Of a stretch of 64,000 nucleotides of DNA, positions 13,833 to 19,362 are shown piece by piece. A program made the translations under genes and the position numbers. The stretch covers positions 1 through 64,000 of the forward strand of contig JAFGIW010000013.1 in assembly GCA_016929415.1 (NCBI GenBank), written 5' to 3'. The notes beneath the pieces were generated by a model. It was not told where the DNA came from. It did no database searches and saw only the letters and a program-made list of their open reading frames with translations. Within the stretch, counting starts at the first letter, position 1. Every line of letters starts with the position of its first letter. Source of the stretch: Chitinispirillaceae bacterium (lineage in GTDB: Bacteria; Fibrobacterota; Chitinivibrionia; Chitinivibrionales; Chitinispirillaceae).

Positions 13833-15251
13833 TTATTGAAGCGGCAGCAATTCCGGCATAGTACCGTTTCGATGGTAGGTCAGGTGATACTCGACACCTG
13901 CTTCGGCATAGATACCGTCGATCGTTTCCGCCCCGTAGTCGATTGAAGCCTCGACCATGCCGGTCAATCCTTTTCCATAATCAACCAATGCCCGCAACGT
14001 CGCCGTAGCGGGTGATTGCCCCGCGGAAAGAGGCACGGCGGGGACGACGACAATTTCCATTTTTATGATGCCGCCGCTGCGGAAATCGATTCTGCTGGAG
14101 GATACTCTGCAACGATTTTTTCTATGGTCAAGGGAGTCGATGCCGGCGACGCAGGCGTACCTGCTTGACCGATGCGCAATGGAATCATGGCCCGGCAGCG
14201 ACTCATCGCGCTGGAGGATGATCGTATCTCCCGTCCGACCGAAGTACGAAGCCCCGTACCGAACACGGTCGGAACCCCCTGCGGCGGTAGTCTGCAGCCG
14301 TTGCAACGCATGAATCCGGTTATCGGCCGTCGTGGTGAAACGATTATCCGCCCCTGCGTCAAAATCCACCTGCAGTATTGTTTCCATTGTTTCCCGGCGG
14401 TAGGTGATGGTTCCGCCGGCGGATGCGACCGTTCCGGATGCCGATGTCGCGAGGAACCCGTCGCCGTCGCCGTCGTAATACACTTCGGAAATAAACAATC
14501 CACCTATCGTCAGCTGCCGTTCCACCATGGTGGAGGCGCTGTCGGAACGTACGAACGCATTGGACGCCTTTCTATACGTATCGAAGCTCACCGAATCAAT
14601 CATCGGTACCTCAAACAGGGTAACCGTACCGATTAGTGAATCCCTGACAACTATGTAATCGAGGACCGTGCTTTCCTTAATGGTATCGACCCGATAATTT
14701 GACTTTTGCGAAGAACCCGATGTGACGGGTGCCATTGAATCGGTCTGAATGAGAAAAAACGTATCGCATTTCAGGAGCGTATCGATCAGAAAAATGGAAT
14801 CGTATCTGATATGCCGTGAAACAAGAACTGAAACCGCCGAATCCTCATCGATGTTTTCCACGGCCGTATCCTGCACGGCGGTATCCATGACGATCGTGTC
14901 ATTAATAAAAACCGTATCGCAGATCACGATGGTATCGGCTATGACACTGATACCCGTATCCGCCGGGGCGGAAGAATCCGCCGCCGCGGCTGCGGCCCGT
15001 TTCGCCAGTATGACTTCCGAAGGCGCGGCATACACTTTCTCCGGATTGAGCTGTCGTTCGCCTTCGACAAGATATGCTGACGGCAGCCACGCGTCGGCTG
15101 AATCGAACATCGTCAGCGCGGCGTCGAGACATGCCGTGATATCGGGATTTCCCGTTTCGGTGCCCGCAGTCGGCCCGGTTGTGCAGCGCATGACACCGGT
15201 AAGCAGCGCAACGGCCATGGCGGAAACCGGGAAGAGAAGATTTTTCTTCAT
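13833..15251 (-). CDS. Lipoprotein with GTETGNP motif and Asp-Thr-rich segment
   Basis: This 472-residue protein has a lipoprotein-like signal with Cys23 in LTGVMRC, then GTETGNP at about residues 30-36. I have seen that motif right after the lipid Cys in Fibrobacterota lipoproteins. Residues 100-150 repeat D-T-(I/V/A) units every five to seven residues, which suggests an extended beta strand array or spacer. The C-terminal half looks beta-rich (YYDGDGDGF, then repeated threonines and aromatics). Its ATG overlaps the stop of the TIGR02147 gene by four bases, so the two are translationally coupled. The function is unknown; the setting suggests a surface partner or sensor for the regulator-like protein. 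Confidence 0.72.
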   Translation of the reverse strand: MKKNLLFPVSAMAVALLTGVMRCTTGPTAGTETGNPDITACLDAALTMFDSADAWLPSAYLVEGERQLNPEKVYAAPSEVILAKRAAAAAADSSAPADTGISVIADTIVICDTVFINDTIVMDTAVQDTAVENIDEDSAVSVLVSRHIRYDSIFLIDTLLKCDTFFLIQTDSMAPVTSGSSQKSNYRVDTIKESTVLDYIVVRDSLIGTVTLFEVPMIDSVSFDTYRKASNAFVRSDSASTMVERQLTIGGLFISEVYYDGDGDGFLATSASGTVASAGGTITYRRETMETILQVDFDAGADNRFTTTADNRIHALQRLQTTAAGGSDRVRYGASYFGRTGDTIILQRDESLPGHDSIAHRSSRYACVAGIDSLDHRKNRCRVSSSRIDFRSGGIIKMEIVVVPAVPLSAGQSPATATLRALVDYGKGLTGMVEASIDYGAETIDGIYAEAGVEYHLTYHRNGTMPELLPLQ

Positions 15252-16090
15252 TGCTCCCCCTCCCCGCGCGGCAATCTGATCGATAATGGAAAGAGCTGAA
15301 GGTTCAGCTGGACGACCCGCTGAGCGTCCCGGTCAGCTTCGGCAAGTTCGAGCAGCTCGCGTCGGACTCGCTGCAGTTTTTCACGGATCATCCGGCAGGT
15401 TTCATCCGACACCGTCACGGTAACGCTGGTAATGTCGCGCTCGCCGGCTGAAAACCGATCGATCGATTCCGACGCAAGCCGCATCATCGCCTTGTGATAG
15501 TTCGCCACCGCCACCGAACGCACCTGCGGACCGGTGGTAAACGACGCGGAGGTCCGGGAGTACGATTTCCCCTCCCTGCGCATAATGAATCCGAGTTTGA
15601 GGAGCAGGGCGACCGATTTCTCCGCCTCCGCGGCGGTGATAGCCGGAATGACCGTGGCGCCCAGTTTACGGTAATCCTCCCTGAAGTCGATGGCCGTCAC
15701 CAGTTCACAGATCACCGGATGATACCACTGGGAATAGTACTCGTACTCCGACGATTCAAGCAGCTTCGGGTCACATTTGATACGGTAACGCAGGATGCGC
15801 GAAAGGTAGAGGTTTTTCTCGTCGAGCGTCCTGCTCTGGTTGAGAAACACCAGGTTTTCCAGGTAATCGCTTTCGCTCTTGTTGAGGCCGAACGCCTTCG
15901 CGACGCGGTAAACACTCTCTTTTGTCAGGTTCCGCTTGCCGTCGACCACCAGCTTGAGGAAGTTGGGGGACTTGAATCCCGCCTTCTGGGAAAAAAGGCG
16001 GTAGGAATAAAACGGATGGTCCGCCTTGCGCTGCTCGAAAAGACTGCGCAGGTAGTCGCGGTAATCCATGTATTCGAAGATGGTTCCCAT
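15248..16090 (-). CDS. TIGR02147-family protein (DUF4423-like, putative regulator)
   Basis: This 280-residue soluble protein has the hallmark opening FEYMDYRDYLRSLFEQRK, followed by a helix-turn-helix-like segment at about residues 28-75 (FSQKAGFKSPNFLKLV, GKRNLTKESVYRVAKAFGL, then ESDYLENLV). The C-terminal part (residues 110-270) carries a winged-helix-like region with LLLKLGFI and ends in ELAEADRDAQRVVQLNLQLFPL. This is the TIGR02147 paralogous family expanded in Fibrobacter, for which no function is established to my knowledge. DNA binding is my inference. A GAGGG site precedes ATG. It follows the vWA gene across a 78-bp gap with a strong hairpin and overlaps the lipoprotein gene. Confidence 0.85.
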   Translation of the reverse strand: MGTIFEYMDYRDYLRSLFEQRKADHPFYSYRLFSQKAGFKSPNFLKLVVDGKRNLTKESVYRVAKAFGLNKSESDYLENLVFLNQSRTLDEKNLYLSRILRYRIKCDPKLLESSEYEYYSQWYHPVICELVTAIDFREDYRKLGATVIPAITAAEAEKSVALLLKLGFIMRREGKSYSRTSASFTTGPQVRSVAVANYHKAMMRLASESIDRFSAGERDITSVTVTVSDETCRMIREKLQRVRRELLELAEADRDAQRVVQLNLQLFPLSIRLPRGEGEQ

Positions 16091-16110
16091 TGTGTCCCTC
16101 TGTTATAATA

Positions 16111-16141
16111 GTGAGACCCCGCAGGTCGTGCGGGGCCTCAC
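16111..16141 (-). other. Strong intercistronic stem-loop upstream of the TIGR02147 gene
   Basis: GTGAG-A-CCCCGCA pairs with TGCGGGG-C-CTCAC (12 pairs, one A/C mismatch) around the loop GGTCG. No T-tract follows on the minus strand. It lies between the vWA stop and the GAGGG ribosome site, where it could lower read-through or protect the upstream message. Confidence 0.7.
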
Positions 16142-16168
16142 CACTGACGCATAACCCAGCAATTCCCG

Positions 16169-18739
16169 TCACCTGCCCAACAGGGTGATACGGAAAATCT
16201 TTTTAAGCCCGCCGCCGGTTGAAACATGGACTGTATATAATCCCCTGCTCAACCGTTGTGCGTTGTTGGCGAAATTCCACTTCACGGTCGTCCCGTTCAT
16301 CTCATAGGGCATAACACTCTTACATGCGACCAGCCGCCCCTTGAGGTCATAAAGACGAAGGTTGATGACGCTCTTCGACGGCAATCCCGCCGCAGTAATC
16401 CATATCACATTACCTTTCGATGTTACAGAGAACAGCCGCTTCGGCGTGTTCTTTTCCACAACCGCCATACCTTTATTCAATAAAATATCCTCAAGGGAGA
16501 TGCCGTCGAAATCGACGCCGGAACCGAGTGCGGAGGTGGGTGCACTGTCCGCCGTGGATCTATACGATGCATCCATCGCTTCGCTGGCGGCGCCGATTTT
16601 CGCGGCGGTAACCGTCGGTTCCTCCTGCTGCCATGAGGTATCTTCCCAAAGCTTCATATCGGGCTCGAGCGCGAGCAGGCTTGTCTGACGGGTGACAATA
16701 TGATACTCCCTGCCGAGCGTCTTCACCGCCGCGGCATTGCCGATATAGTCGTCGAACACCAACTGTTCGCTTGTGCGGAACGCCCACTGCGGATCGATAA
16801 AGGGCTGATAGCTGGAAACCGTCGGTGAATAATTGCCGGTCGTCGTCATTGCACAGGAGAACCAGAGCCCGCCGGTTTTGCCGCGGACGGTCACCGCAAC
16901 CGGTTTGCCGCTGTTTTCAATGCTCAGTTTACCGGCAACGCGCACAAGGGCGTTATTGCTGTTATACGTTGACGGAAGCGCCATTTTGCCGAGCGACTTC
17001 TTCGCCATAATGGCTTCATCGATCATTATCGCCCCGCCCCGCACAGTATAATAGTAAGAATAGCCGTTGTAATACCCGTCAATGGTAGAGGCAATATCGG
17101 TGAGCAGATCGGAGGTAATCGAGAGGTCGCGTATGCCGCTGTAGTTGGAACTTCCGAAGAGAGCCGGGAGCTGGGGAACGGAGATTCTCCTTCCGTCGAT
17201 AATTTCATAGCGGTAGGCGATATTGTACCGGTTGAGAATGCCCGACAACCTGAATCCGCCCGATTCAAGCGCGATCGGCAGCAGCTGGTAGTTGTCATCG
17301 ATAGTGAACAGCGTCAAACTGGACTTCTTAACCATGGCCACAAGCCGCGTCATCAGATCGGTATAGGCGGTGCCGTCGTCACTGACTACAAGCTTGTTGT
17401 CAACCTTGGTATAATAGGTCGGCGGTTGAATGAGGTCGCTGATGAGCACCGCGATCCCTTCGGGCGCCTGTTCAACGGCTTTATTAAGGAGTTCTTCCGT
17501 TGAAGCGTCGGAAGATGCGGTCGCGGCGATGATCGCCTTTATCGCCAGGTCAATGTTCGCGGCCGTCACCTCGGCCGGTGCATCGAACACCTGCTGCACC
17601 GTTTTGCCGCCGAAAAGAACATTGAACTTCTGCCCCTCTTTGAGATACTGCTGCAGCGCCAGTACGGCGTATTTCTGCGCGCGTTCCCAAATGTTAACTT
17701 TTACGTATCCGGCAGAGGAGGTATACGTGTAACCGTATACTTCAGCCCGTTTACGATAGTATTCGTTCCAGTCCCATACGCTGTTGCGTAAATCAATGAT
17801 AATGATGCGCGTATCGGGTTCATCCTCGAACCGCATGGTCGCATCGGAGAGCTCAGCCGTGATGCCGGCGGTCATACTCTGGCTCTTGGCATCCCTGCCG
17901 ACCCAGAGAAATTCGTTGCCCCCCGACGGGTCCCGGCTTGCAACCGTACCCGGTTGAAGCCTGAATATTTTATTCCCCGATAACGTCAGCGTTTTACTAG
18001 ATGAAAAGGTCCCGGCTCCCAGACCGGGGATGTCCACCGTATACTCGCCGCGATCGTCGGCAGTGAAGGTGGCCTGCATGAAGCCGATCCGCTTTTCAAA
18101 CACGGGATTCGTTGAATAATAGGAGTAGACATAGGTGCTGTCAAAAGTCACCGGCAGGCAGGCGGTGATCAGCGGTGTGGTACCGGCAACGGAATCATCG
18201 TTAAAGGTATGATGGAACTCAATAGTGATCTTGCGTGATTTCATCGAGGAAGCGGGGAATATACGCAAATTATAATATCCGCGGCCCCATGTCTCAAGAA
18301 GTGCCGGGTCTTTGCGCACTCCCACGATCTGCTGATACTGCTGCGATGCCAGGGCGCGGTCCTGAATCTGGGCCGCTACGGGTTCGCCCTCGATCCAAAG
18401 CCACATGCTGTCGGCAACGAAATCGCTGGGAAGCTGAAAACTCATGGTCATTTCGATGCTGTCGGAACCCTGACGCGTGCTCTGGGTTTCCACCAGAGTA
18501 TCAACTTTTTCTAAAATAAAGTAATTATTGGAGGTTCCCGGAGTAAGCACCAGCGTGTATTTACTGATGGCGATACCGGAGTTGACCCGCATATCGACCA
18601 GCAGCGAATCAACCGAGGTCTGAACGCTGAAGCCCTCACGAACAGCGCGTGAGGAGATGCGATTCAACTGCATCTGACCGAAAGCGATCGATCCGAGCAA
18701 CAAGGTGAAGAAAGGGAAACCGGCAATACTTCGTTTCAT
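16169..18739 (-). CDS. Secreted VIT/von Willebrand factor A protein with C-terminal sorting domain
   Basis: ATG 18739 is chosen because GAGGAGG lies five bases upstream and a Sec signal (FPFFTLLLGSIAFGQ) follows at once. The resulting 856-residue protein has a VIT domain at about residues 30-170 (FQLPSDFVADSMWLWIEG, QDRALASQQYQQIVG, ETWGRGYYNLRIFP). A vWA-like domain begins near residue 310 (RIIIIDLRNS, with GIAVLISDL further on). The usual DxSxS metal site reads D-L-R-N-S, so metal binding may be altered. The last 85 residues form a beta sandwich (INLRLYDLKGRLV, then LSRGLYTVHVS) as in type IX secretion sorting domains. It is first in the module with TIGR02147 and the lipoprotein, so it is probably surface-bound. 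Confidence 0.82.
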   Translation of the reverse strand: MKRSIAGFPFFTLLLGSIAFGQMQLNRISSRAVREGFSVQTSVDSLLVDMRVNSGIAISKYTLVLTPGTSNNYFILEKVDTLVETQSTRQGSDSIEMTMSFQLPSDFVADSMWLWIEGEPVAAQIQDRALASQQYQQIVGVRKDPALLETWGRGYYNLRIFPASSMKSRKITIEFHHTFNDDSVAGTTPLITACLPVTFDSTYVYSYYSTNPVFEKRIGFMQATFTADDRGEYTVDIPGLGAGTFSSSKTLTLSGNKIFRLQPGTVASRDPSGGNEFLWVGRDAKSQSMTAGITAELSDATMRFEDEPDTRIIIIDLRNSVWDWNEYYRKRAEVYGYTYTSSAGYVKVNIWERAQKYAVLALQQYLKEGQKFNVLFGGKTVQQVFDAPAEVTAANIDLAIKAIIAATASSDASTEELLNKAVEQAPEGIAVLISDLIQPPTYYTKVDNKLVVSDDGTAYTDLMTRLVAMVKKSSLTLFTIDDNYQLLPIALESGGFRLSGILNRYNIAYRYEIIDGRRISVPQLPALFGSSNYSGIRDLSITSDLLTDIASTIDGYYNGYSYYYTVRGGAIMIDEAIMAKKSLGKMALPSTYNSNNALVRVAGKLSIENSGKPVAVTVRGKTGGLWFSCAMTTTGNYSPTVSSYQPFIDPQWAFRTSEQLVFDDYIGNAAAVKTLGREYHIVTRQTSLLALEPDMKLWEDTSWQQEEPTVTAAKIGAASEAMDASYRSTADSAPTSALGSGVDFDGISLEDILLNKGMAVVEKNTPKRLFSVTSKGNVIWITAAGLPSKSVINLRLYDLKGRLVACKSVMPYEMNGTTVKWNFANNAQRLSRGLYTVHVSTGGGLKKIFRITLLGR

Positions 18740-18805
18740 GGGGCCTCCTCGTGGGGGTGATGGCTGGTTAATTGGATATGTATTCAAGTCAATGATACTG
18801 CATTT

Positions 18806-18836
18806 AATATAGCTCCGTATACTGTTGACGTCAACA
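18806..18836 (-). promoter_or_regulatory. Sigma70-like promoter with embedded 14-bp palindrome
   Basis: On the minus strand TTGACG (18834-18829), a 17-bp spacer, and TATATT (18811-18806) face the vWA gene, with a leader of about 55-60 nt. The -35 hexamer is inside the perfect palindrome TGTTGACGTCAACA (18823-18836), which would make a natural operator for a dimeric repressor or activator. Confidence 0.65.
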
Positions 18837-18839
18837 CTT

Positions 18840-19362
18840 TTAAAAAGAAAGCGTATTCTGTTGTTATCACTATCAATTATATATTTATCACAACTCTTTG
18901 ATTTAATTAATCATCATTAATTCTTATAATTTCTATTAGTATTATAAATGGGATATTTCTTTGGTTCATACGGCCACATCAGGCAACGTTCAAGGAGGCG
19001 CCGATGAGATAAAGGACAGTATGACTGTTACACTACCGATCTTTGAGCTGAAGGCTTCTGTTCCGCCCGCCTTCGCCGAAGCGGCTTCGCGCAGGCAGAC
19101 GTGACCCCCGGGCACCCCCAGTGCCGGGCATGATGCATTTACAGGGGGCACGCCCGGGACGGGTTGCAGCGCAAGACCGGGAGATAAAATTACGGTATAA
19201 GCTGGAAGAGGCCTCTTTCCTTCCTTTCTCCTGACTTCTGAATTCCGACTTCTGCTTCTCTGCCAGCACGAAGCCGGGTTGCCTGCCCGGCAGAACGAGA
19301 GTTGTTGTTTTTCACACTTCCATTTAACAGTTTTCGTATACTCCGGTTTAATTGGGAACAAT
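18840..19362. other. AT-rich leader plus degenerate repeat-like spacer
   Basis: 18840-18960 is very AT-rich. 18990-19290 is GC-rich and not convincingly coding. It carries self-complementary GC blocks (CGCCTTCGCCGAAGCGGCTTCGCG region, paired CCCGGGC/GCCCGGG words) and a CTGACTTCTGAATTCCGACTTCTG-type simple repeat that often gives spurious reading frames in genomes. No gene is called. Confidence 0.55.

Follow-up and report, generated by a model that had tools for sequence, protein, structure and literature searches.

The window, a stretch of 64,000 nucleotides from a Chitinispirillaceae bacterium, carries three genes in a row on its minus strand: a gene for a secreted VIT/vWA protein (16169..18739), a gene for a TIGR02147/DUF4423 regulator (15248..16090), and a gene for the cognate lipoprotein (13833..15251). 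All three lie where the original prediction had placed them, and the ATGA overlap that it reported between the regulator and lipoprotein genes is present, with the start of the lipoprotein gene falling inside the stop of the regulator gene. For the VIT/vWA protein, the ATG at 18739, which stands behind a GGAGG, is a more likely start than the TTG at 18787 that opens the listed reading frame (16169-18787). Profile searches with this protein returned a VIT domain (E=3.6e-8), a weak vWA match (E=0.0085), and a weak T9SS-like C-terminal tail (Por_Secre_tail, E=0.01) that scored 16.5 bits, short of the cut-off of 27.

Ahead of the VIT/vWA gene, on the same minus strand, we found a -10 box TATATT (18806..18811), a -35 box TTGACG at 17 bp from it (18829..18834), and, 18 bp further upstream, the candidate operator GATAACAACAGAATAC (18853..18868). 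Because this operator-bearing promoter precedes the VIT/vWA gene, the three genes probably form a single operon in the window. The operator retains the half-site GAATAC, while its left half is degenerate in this genus (in the window and in the orthologue G021). GAATAC was located 41-42 bp ahead of the -10 box in the window and in G021, G019, G006, G017, G020, and G004, and the 18-bp gap between operator and -35 box recurs in G021, G017, and G019. A perfect palindromic partner is seen in the orthologue G017 (GTATTC-TTCA-GAATAC), and two orthologues that were fetched afterwards, L350 and L351, carry GTATTC-GTGA-GAATAC and GTATAC-TTTA-GAATAC, both 41 bp ahead of the -10 box. The consensus of the group is GTATWC-N4-GAATAC.

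Between the VIT/vWA and regulator genes sits a strong, terminator- or attenuator-like hairpin with a 13-bp stem (16111..16141, minus strand), which could set the ratio of VIT/vWA protein to regulator. It had no match in Rfam; hairpins stand at the equivalent place in G021, G022, and G017 with stems of different sequence, i.e., the position is kept and the sequence is not. We rejected this hairpin as the operator because the conserved promoter precedes the VIT/vWA gene. A hairpin ahead of every regulator was likewise ruled out, as the feature is not general and is distinct from the operator.

The VIT/vWA gene varies in presence and place among the orthologous loci. It lies upstream of the regulator-lipoprotein pair in G021, G022, and G006, is reduced to a remnant in G017, and was absent at the orthologous pair in G004 and G020; in L351, it is found downstream of the lipoprotein gene, and in L350, a different secreted gene takes its place. 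In G017 and G019 (L217, L221), the upstream VIT gene is cut to a fragment or to the C-terminal tail only, next to an intact regulator-lipoprotein pair. Since the gene is replaced in L350, moved in L351, and missing in G004 and G020, the cargo is exchangeable: The module is not specific for VIT/vWA, and the VIT/vWA protein is an optional operon cargo among several secreted partners that can replace one another.

The regulator of the window is a full-length member of TIGR02147 (Fsuc_second)/DUF4423, matching the profile over residues 3-270 of 280 with 272.6 bits (cut-off 50); the NCBIfam and Pfam family entry carries no function. The original prediction had called this protein helix-turn-helix-like, and its predicted structure indeed includes a DNA-binding fold. 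An AF2 model (48 paralogues, pLDDT 91.5) places an XRE-type helix-turn-helix (HTH) at about residues 24-66, with the recognition helix at about 44-49, followed by a C-terminal winged-helix-like domain, and Foldseek matched the HTH to C.AhdI (probability 0.98, TMt 0.74, rmsd 2.2 Å). A structure search with the whole regulator gave no PDB match above noise, only separate matches for the HTH and winged-helix parts, and the model contains no transmembrane helix. Among the 48 family members, Pfam HTH_3 was detected in 11 and HTH_31 in 7. TIGR02147 is hence predicted to be an XRE-type HTH plus winged-helix protein.

The pairing of regulator and lipoprotein extends far beyond the window, with tens of such units per genome across nearly all of the phylum Fibrobacterota. 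The genome from which the window derives (5.08 Mb in 227 contigs) contains 49 TIGR02147 genes, 44 of which are directly followed by a lipoprotein-type gene (43 by an automatic rule, plus C22, whose “FLQ|C” was recognized by reading), with a 4-bp overlap in 33 of these 44 pairs. By the same kind of generous rule, a lipoprotein-like gene followed only 35 of 270 other genes (13%). Across the sampled genomes of Fibrobacterota, the pairing was present for 268 of 299 scored regulators. The earlier observation of the pairing was thus right, and the pairing is larger than had been stated; the proposed expansion of the family in Fibrobacter relatives is equally borne out by the 49 copies here and by the presence of the family in 157 of the 168 Fibrobacterota genomes searched, with up to 85 matches in one. 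All eight orthologues of the window’s pair retain both genes, with 60-89% identity for the regulator and 26-57% for the lipoprotein. The closest named relatives are Chitinispirillaceae and Chitinivibrionales bins. Ten small-genome relatives of the same family or order (genera g5 and g15; G007-G014, G028, and G029) have no TIGR02147 gene at all, in contrast to almost every other genome of the phylum. The TIGR02147 genes of the window’s genome without an adjoining lipoprotein gene are C220, C9, C96:38887, C224:155561, and C60:218, and C96:38887 has an imperfect operator, TGTTCGC-TTAA-GAGAACA, that resembles that of its paralogue. Apparent regulator-lipoprotein fusions in G164 and G040 were merely read-through of high-GC frames, with separate normal genes present, and 850-aa frames in G016, G017, and G022 arose from masked stretches read as N.

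Upstream of the regulators, a palindrome of 16-18 bp recurs as their likely operator, often of the form GTTnnn-N4-6-nnnAAC, with arms that vary among paralogues. Short palindromes of the type GTTnnn-N4-nnnAAC precede many regulators, and the pattern was fixed on the window’s own genome before being applied elsewhere. In this genome, GTTabc-N-a'b'c'AAC occurs upstream of 12 of 48 regulators, compared to 0.45 in shuffled sequences; in other genomes, the fixed pattern was found for 31 of 254 regulators (about 2.2 expected), and in 4 of 168 upstream regions of control genes, one of these regions also serving a divergent cassette. Within Fibrobacter, few regulators have a GTT operator (1 of 29).

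The palindromes concentrate at set distances from the promoter. When we scanned 302 upstream regions for perfect palindromes with no constraint on their sequence and measured the distance to TATATT-like -10 boxes, 89 fell at 40-43 bp and 32 at 50-51 bp before the -10 box, on a background of about 6 per 2-bp bin. After clustering at 50% identity, the best -10 box lay at 40-43 or 50-53 bp for 20 of 25 GTT operators, and, with relatives collapsed, palindromes at 40-43 bp remained in 30 of 127 clusters, compared to 4-11 in most distant bins. Strict palindromes occupy the expected place in only about a third of the regulators; under a looser rule, the excess is smaller, with 107 of 302 having one there versus 44-63 at shifted offsets. 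Counted from the -10 box, the center of a 16-bp site lies at -61.5 for a 41-bp gap and at -71.5 for a 51-bp gap, such that the operators stand upstream of the -35 box and in helical phase, as is characteristic of class I activation. Class I activators such as CRP have the same operator centers, and in Escherichia coli, activation by CRP peaks at -61.5 and -71.5 and dips at -66.5 (PMC6301791). The protein folds of CRP and TIGR02147 are unrelated, and the TIGR02147 operator sequence differs for each paralogue.

The arms of the operators appear to be matched to the regulators that they precede. Among orthologues, the spacer drifts but the arms stay fixed, as in GTTATC-AGAT/GCAT-GATAAC and GTTGCA-TAACAA/TAATAA-TGCAAC, and TGTTCTC-N4-GAGAACA is shared within one orthologue group. 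On the protein side, eleven regulators with the inner triples GAA, GAC, GAT, GCA, GCC, GGC, or GTA are all one residue short just before the recognition helix, a clear gap that among the remaining listed regulators occurs in L133 only (inner triple TTT). When columns of the protein alignment were associated with bases of the operator, four of the five strongest signals mapped to the region of the recognition helix, and a distance test on diverged pairs gave a modest correlation (r=0.137, where the highest value among 500 permutations was 0.147). This co-variation is confounded with shared descent, and it supports, rather than proves, a contact between regulator and operator.

Some operators also recur away from their own cassettes. 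GTATWC-N4-GAATAC has only three sites in the window’s genome, two of which precede a -10 box by exactly 41 bp and genes for secreted proteins by about 100 bp, one of these proteins being a 748-aa VIT+vWA protein (VIT, E=1.3e-24). These distant sites are not assignable with certainty to the window’s regulator because the genome has a second predicted reader of GTATTC, L041 (spacer 5). GTTCTC-N4-GAGAAC likewise has three sites, one at its own cassette, one 41 bp before the -10 box of a gene for a secreted DUF6588 protein, and one 50 bp before a -10 box, about 470 bp upstream of the start of a gene for an arylsulfotransferase-like secreted protein. The DUF6588 gene adjoins a gene of lipoprotein type (L359:4874-5173, plus strand) whose product has numerous DxDxDG repeats that resemble calcium-binding ones. 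TGGACA-N4-TGTCCA has a single site, at its own cassette. Downstream, the next gene lies on the same strand in 33 of 46 readable cassettes and, according to a simple hydropathy rule, encodes a signal peptide in 30 of these 33; about a third of the 30 are GH2, GH26, GH43, GH53, pectate lyase, or esterase proteins. No SusC/SusD pair was found among 20 next-door genes scanned singly.

The lipoprotein of the window has its candidate lipobox cysteine at Cys23, followed by GTETGNP, a D/T-rich stretch of low model confidence, and an all-beta C-terminal domain. It matched no Pfam or NCBIfam profile, and its model, all-beta in the C-terminal half (mean pLDDT 63), had no confident PDB match. Of the 43 paired lipoproteins in the genome, 31 contain a carboxypeptidase-regulatory-like domain, followed by heads that include Laminin_G_3 (11), DUF2341 (11), LRR (3), Kelch (1), and FGE-sulfatase (1). 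A looser family motif, G..[ST][ED][TVIAS], appears shortly past the cysteine in 162 of 268 paired lipoproteins versus 1 of 19 unpaired ones, while the exact GTETGNP, which we rejected as a universal motif, is limited to the window’s orthologues and relatives. Compared to the pattern [LVI][ASTVI][GAS]C, the cysteine after a hydrophobic stretch is invariant and the window’s VMR|C has a noncanonical -1 residue. In the window’s order (own genome, G020, G022, G019, and G033), the cysteine frequently follows R, H, Q, or L; in Fibrobacter and most other families, it follows A, S, or G. The signal peptidase II of this clade may accept unusual sites, or these proteins may be unprocessed membrane anchors. 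In F. succinogenes, four lipoproteins with a carboxypeptidase-regulatory-like domain were scarcer on cellulose than on glucose (PMC6851124).

Pairing, operators, spacing, co-variation, and distant sites, all read from the sequence, are in our view best described by a regulator-lipoprotein operon in which the TIGR02147 protein of Fibrobacterota is probably a class I–type self-activator of a surface lipoprotein and of secreted proteins. We infer that a TIGR02147 dimer would bind, through its XRE-type HTH, its own version of the palindromic family operator. From a site centered near -61.5, or a full turn of the helix farther upstream at -71.5, it would activate RNA polymerase in class I fashion, rather than repress, and thereby switch on its own gene in positive autoregulation. 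The same activation would extend to the translationally coupled surface lipoprotein and to any secreted cargo, whether encoded in the operon or served by one of a few distant promoters. The window’s cargo, the secreted VIT/vWA protein, is encoded between promoter and regulator. The lipoprotein, built from a mature N terminus (AGGxSETxNG/GTETGNP), usually a carboxypeptidase-regulatory-like beta-sandwich, and a variable head (LamG/ConA-like, DUF2341, LRR, or Kelch), would be the output and, on the cell surface, would presumably bind a substrate or a partner. Output is the simplest reading of the lipoprotein, and a receptor role is the less likely one. The surface-display control system envisaged in the original prediction thus gains support from the operators, the promoter geometry, and the neighboring genes, and loses its specificity for VIT/vWA proteins.

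The original prediction had also let the lipoprotein report to the regulator, and a scheme of this kind, in which a ligand-bound lipoprotein receptor signals via some inner-membrane partner to TIGR02147 and on to the operon, functionally akin to RsgI-SigI or FecA-FecR-FecI, strikes us as unlikely, if worth keeping in mind. It would fit the near one-to-one, translationally coupled pairing and the build of the lipoproteins, whose N-terminal part is constant and whose heads are variable and binding-like, as receptors should be. The much faster divergence of orthologous lipoproteins (26-57%) than of regulators (60-89%) would suit a receptor and fits a surface output equally well. Against it, the cassettes lack an anti-sigma-like middle gene or a transmembrane partner, the regulator model has no transmembrane helix, and 5 of 49 regulators have no lipoprotein; our search for a membrane-spanning link, fusion proteins, or evidence of contact between the two proteins found none. 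We take the lipoprotein gene to be a target rather than a reporter because of the operator geometry.

This geometry also bears on a scheme in which the regulator represses its own gene through the palindrome and the lipoprotein is made once repression lifts. Repression of their own genes is common among XRE-type regulators, which speaks for such an autorepressor; the sites, however, are at least 18 bp upstream of the -35 box and in phase at -61.5/-71.5 instead of lying over the promoter, and we regard autorepression as distinctly improbable. Least probable of all, and very doubtful in our judgment, is that the palindromes are sites of a different, global regulator and that the pairing reflects nothing more than linkage passed on as the two genes duplicate together. 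Duplication does yield paralogues, and linkage by itself could conceivably last, but within a single genome, neighboring paralogues have different arms, orthologues share theirs, and the arms vary along with the HTH of the regulator itself, and the solitary occurrence of TGGACA-N4-TGTCCA argues in the same direction.

The proposed self-activating regulator-lipoprotein units can be compared with two further known systems. SigI/RsgI of Clostridium thermocellum (PMC12203970, PMC4711584) similarly comprises multiplied pairs of a regulator and an envelope protein in a plant-fiber degrader, where the outer domains vary and look binding-like and where secreted enzymes are linked to the pairs; in contrast, the TIGR02147 cassettes have no sigma factor or transmembrane anti-sigma protein and instead combine a predicted HTH activator with a lipoprotein. 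The polysaccharide utilization loci of Bacteroidota (controlled by SusR, HTCS, or ECF/anti-sigma) likewise combine, within one operon, a local regulator and a surface lipoprotein with carbohydrate-active enzymes that are secreted, whereas the TIGR02147 cassettes examined have no adjoining SusC/SusD, a different regulator family, and usually one cargo gene. In the literature searched, we found no mention of TIGR02147 and a mention of DUF4423 in a single paper, and the operator, activator geometry, and lipoprotein pairing of TIGR02147 appear to be undescribed there.

Fibrobacterota are fiber- and chitin-degrading bacteria, and to our knowledge, the control of their cellulose- and chitin-degrading enzymes and surface proteins is poorly known. 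We tentatively entertain the possibility that the main layer of surface control in this phylum consists of arrays of 20-85 orthogonal one-component switches that activate themselves, each reading an operator of its own and paired with a separate surface lipoprotein. Positive feedback would then enable single cells to commit to different sets of surface proteins and enzymes with no need to rearrange their DNA, and ligand information may in addition be fed back to each regulator by its lipoprotein. An uncharacterized and heavily multiplied family is turned into predicted DNA-binding activators with readable operators, testable family-wide, whose regulons are predictable from sequence, as for the second VIT/vWA gene. 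Their paired lipoproteins are, in turn, candidates for the binding of substrates. Overall, these units, which often carry secreted enzymes or surface proteins as well, are good candidates for a part that has long been missing in Fibrobacterota, namely, the switches that govern surface proteins and the breakdown of polysaccharides.
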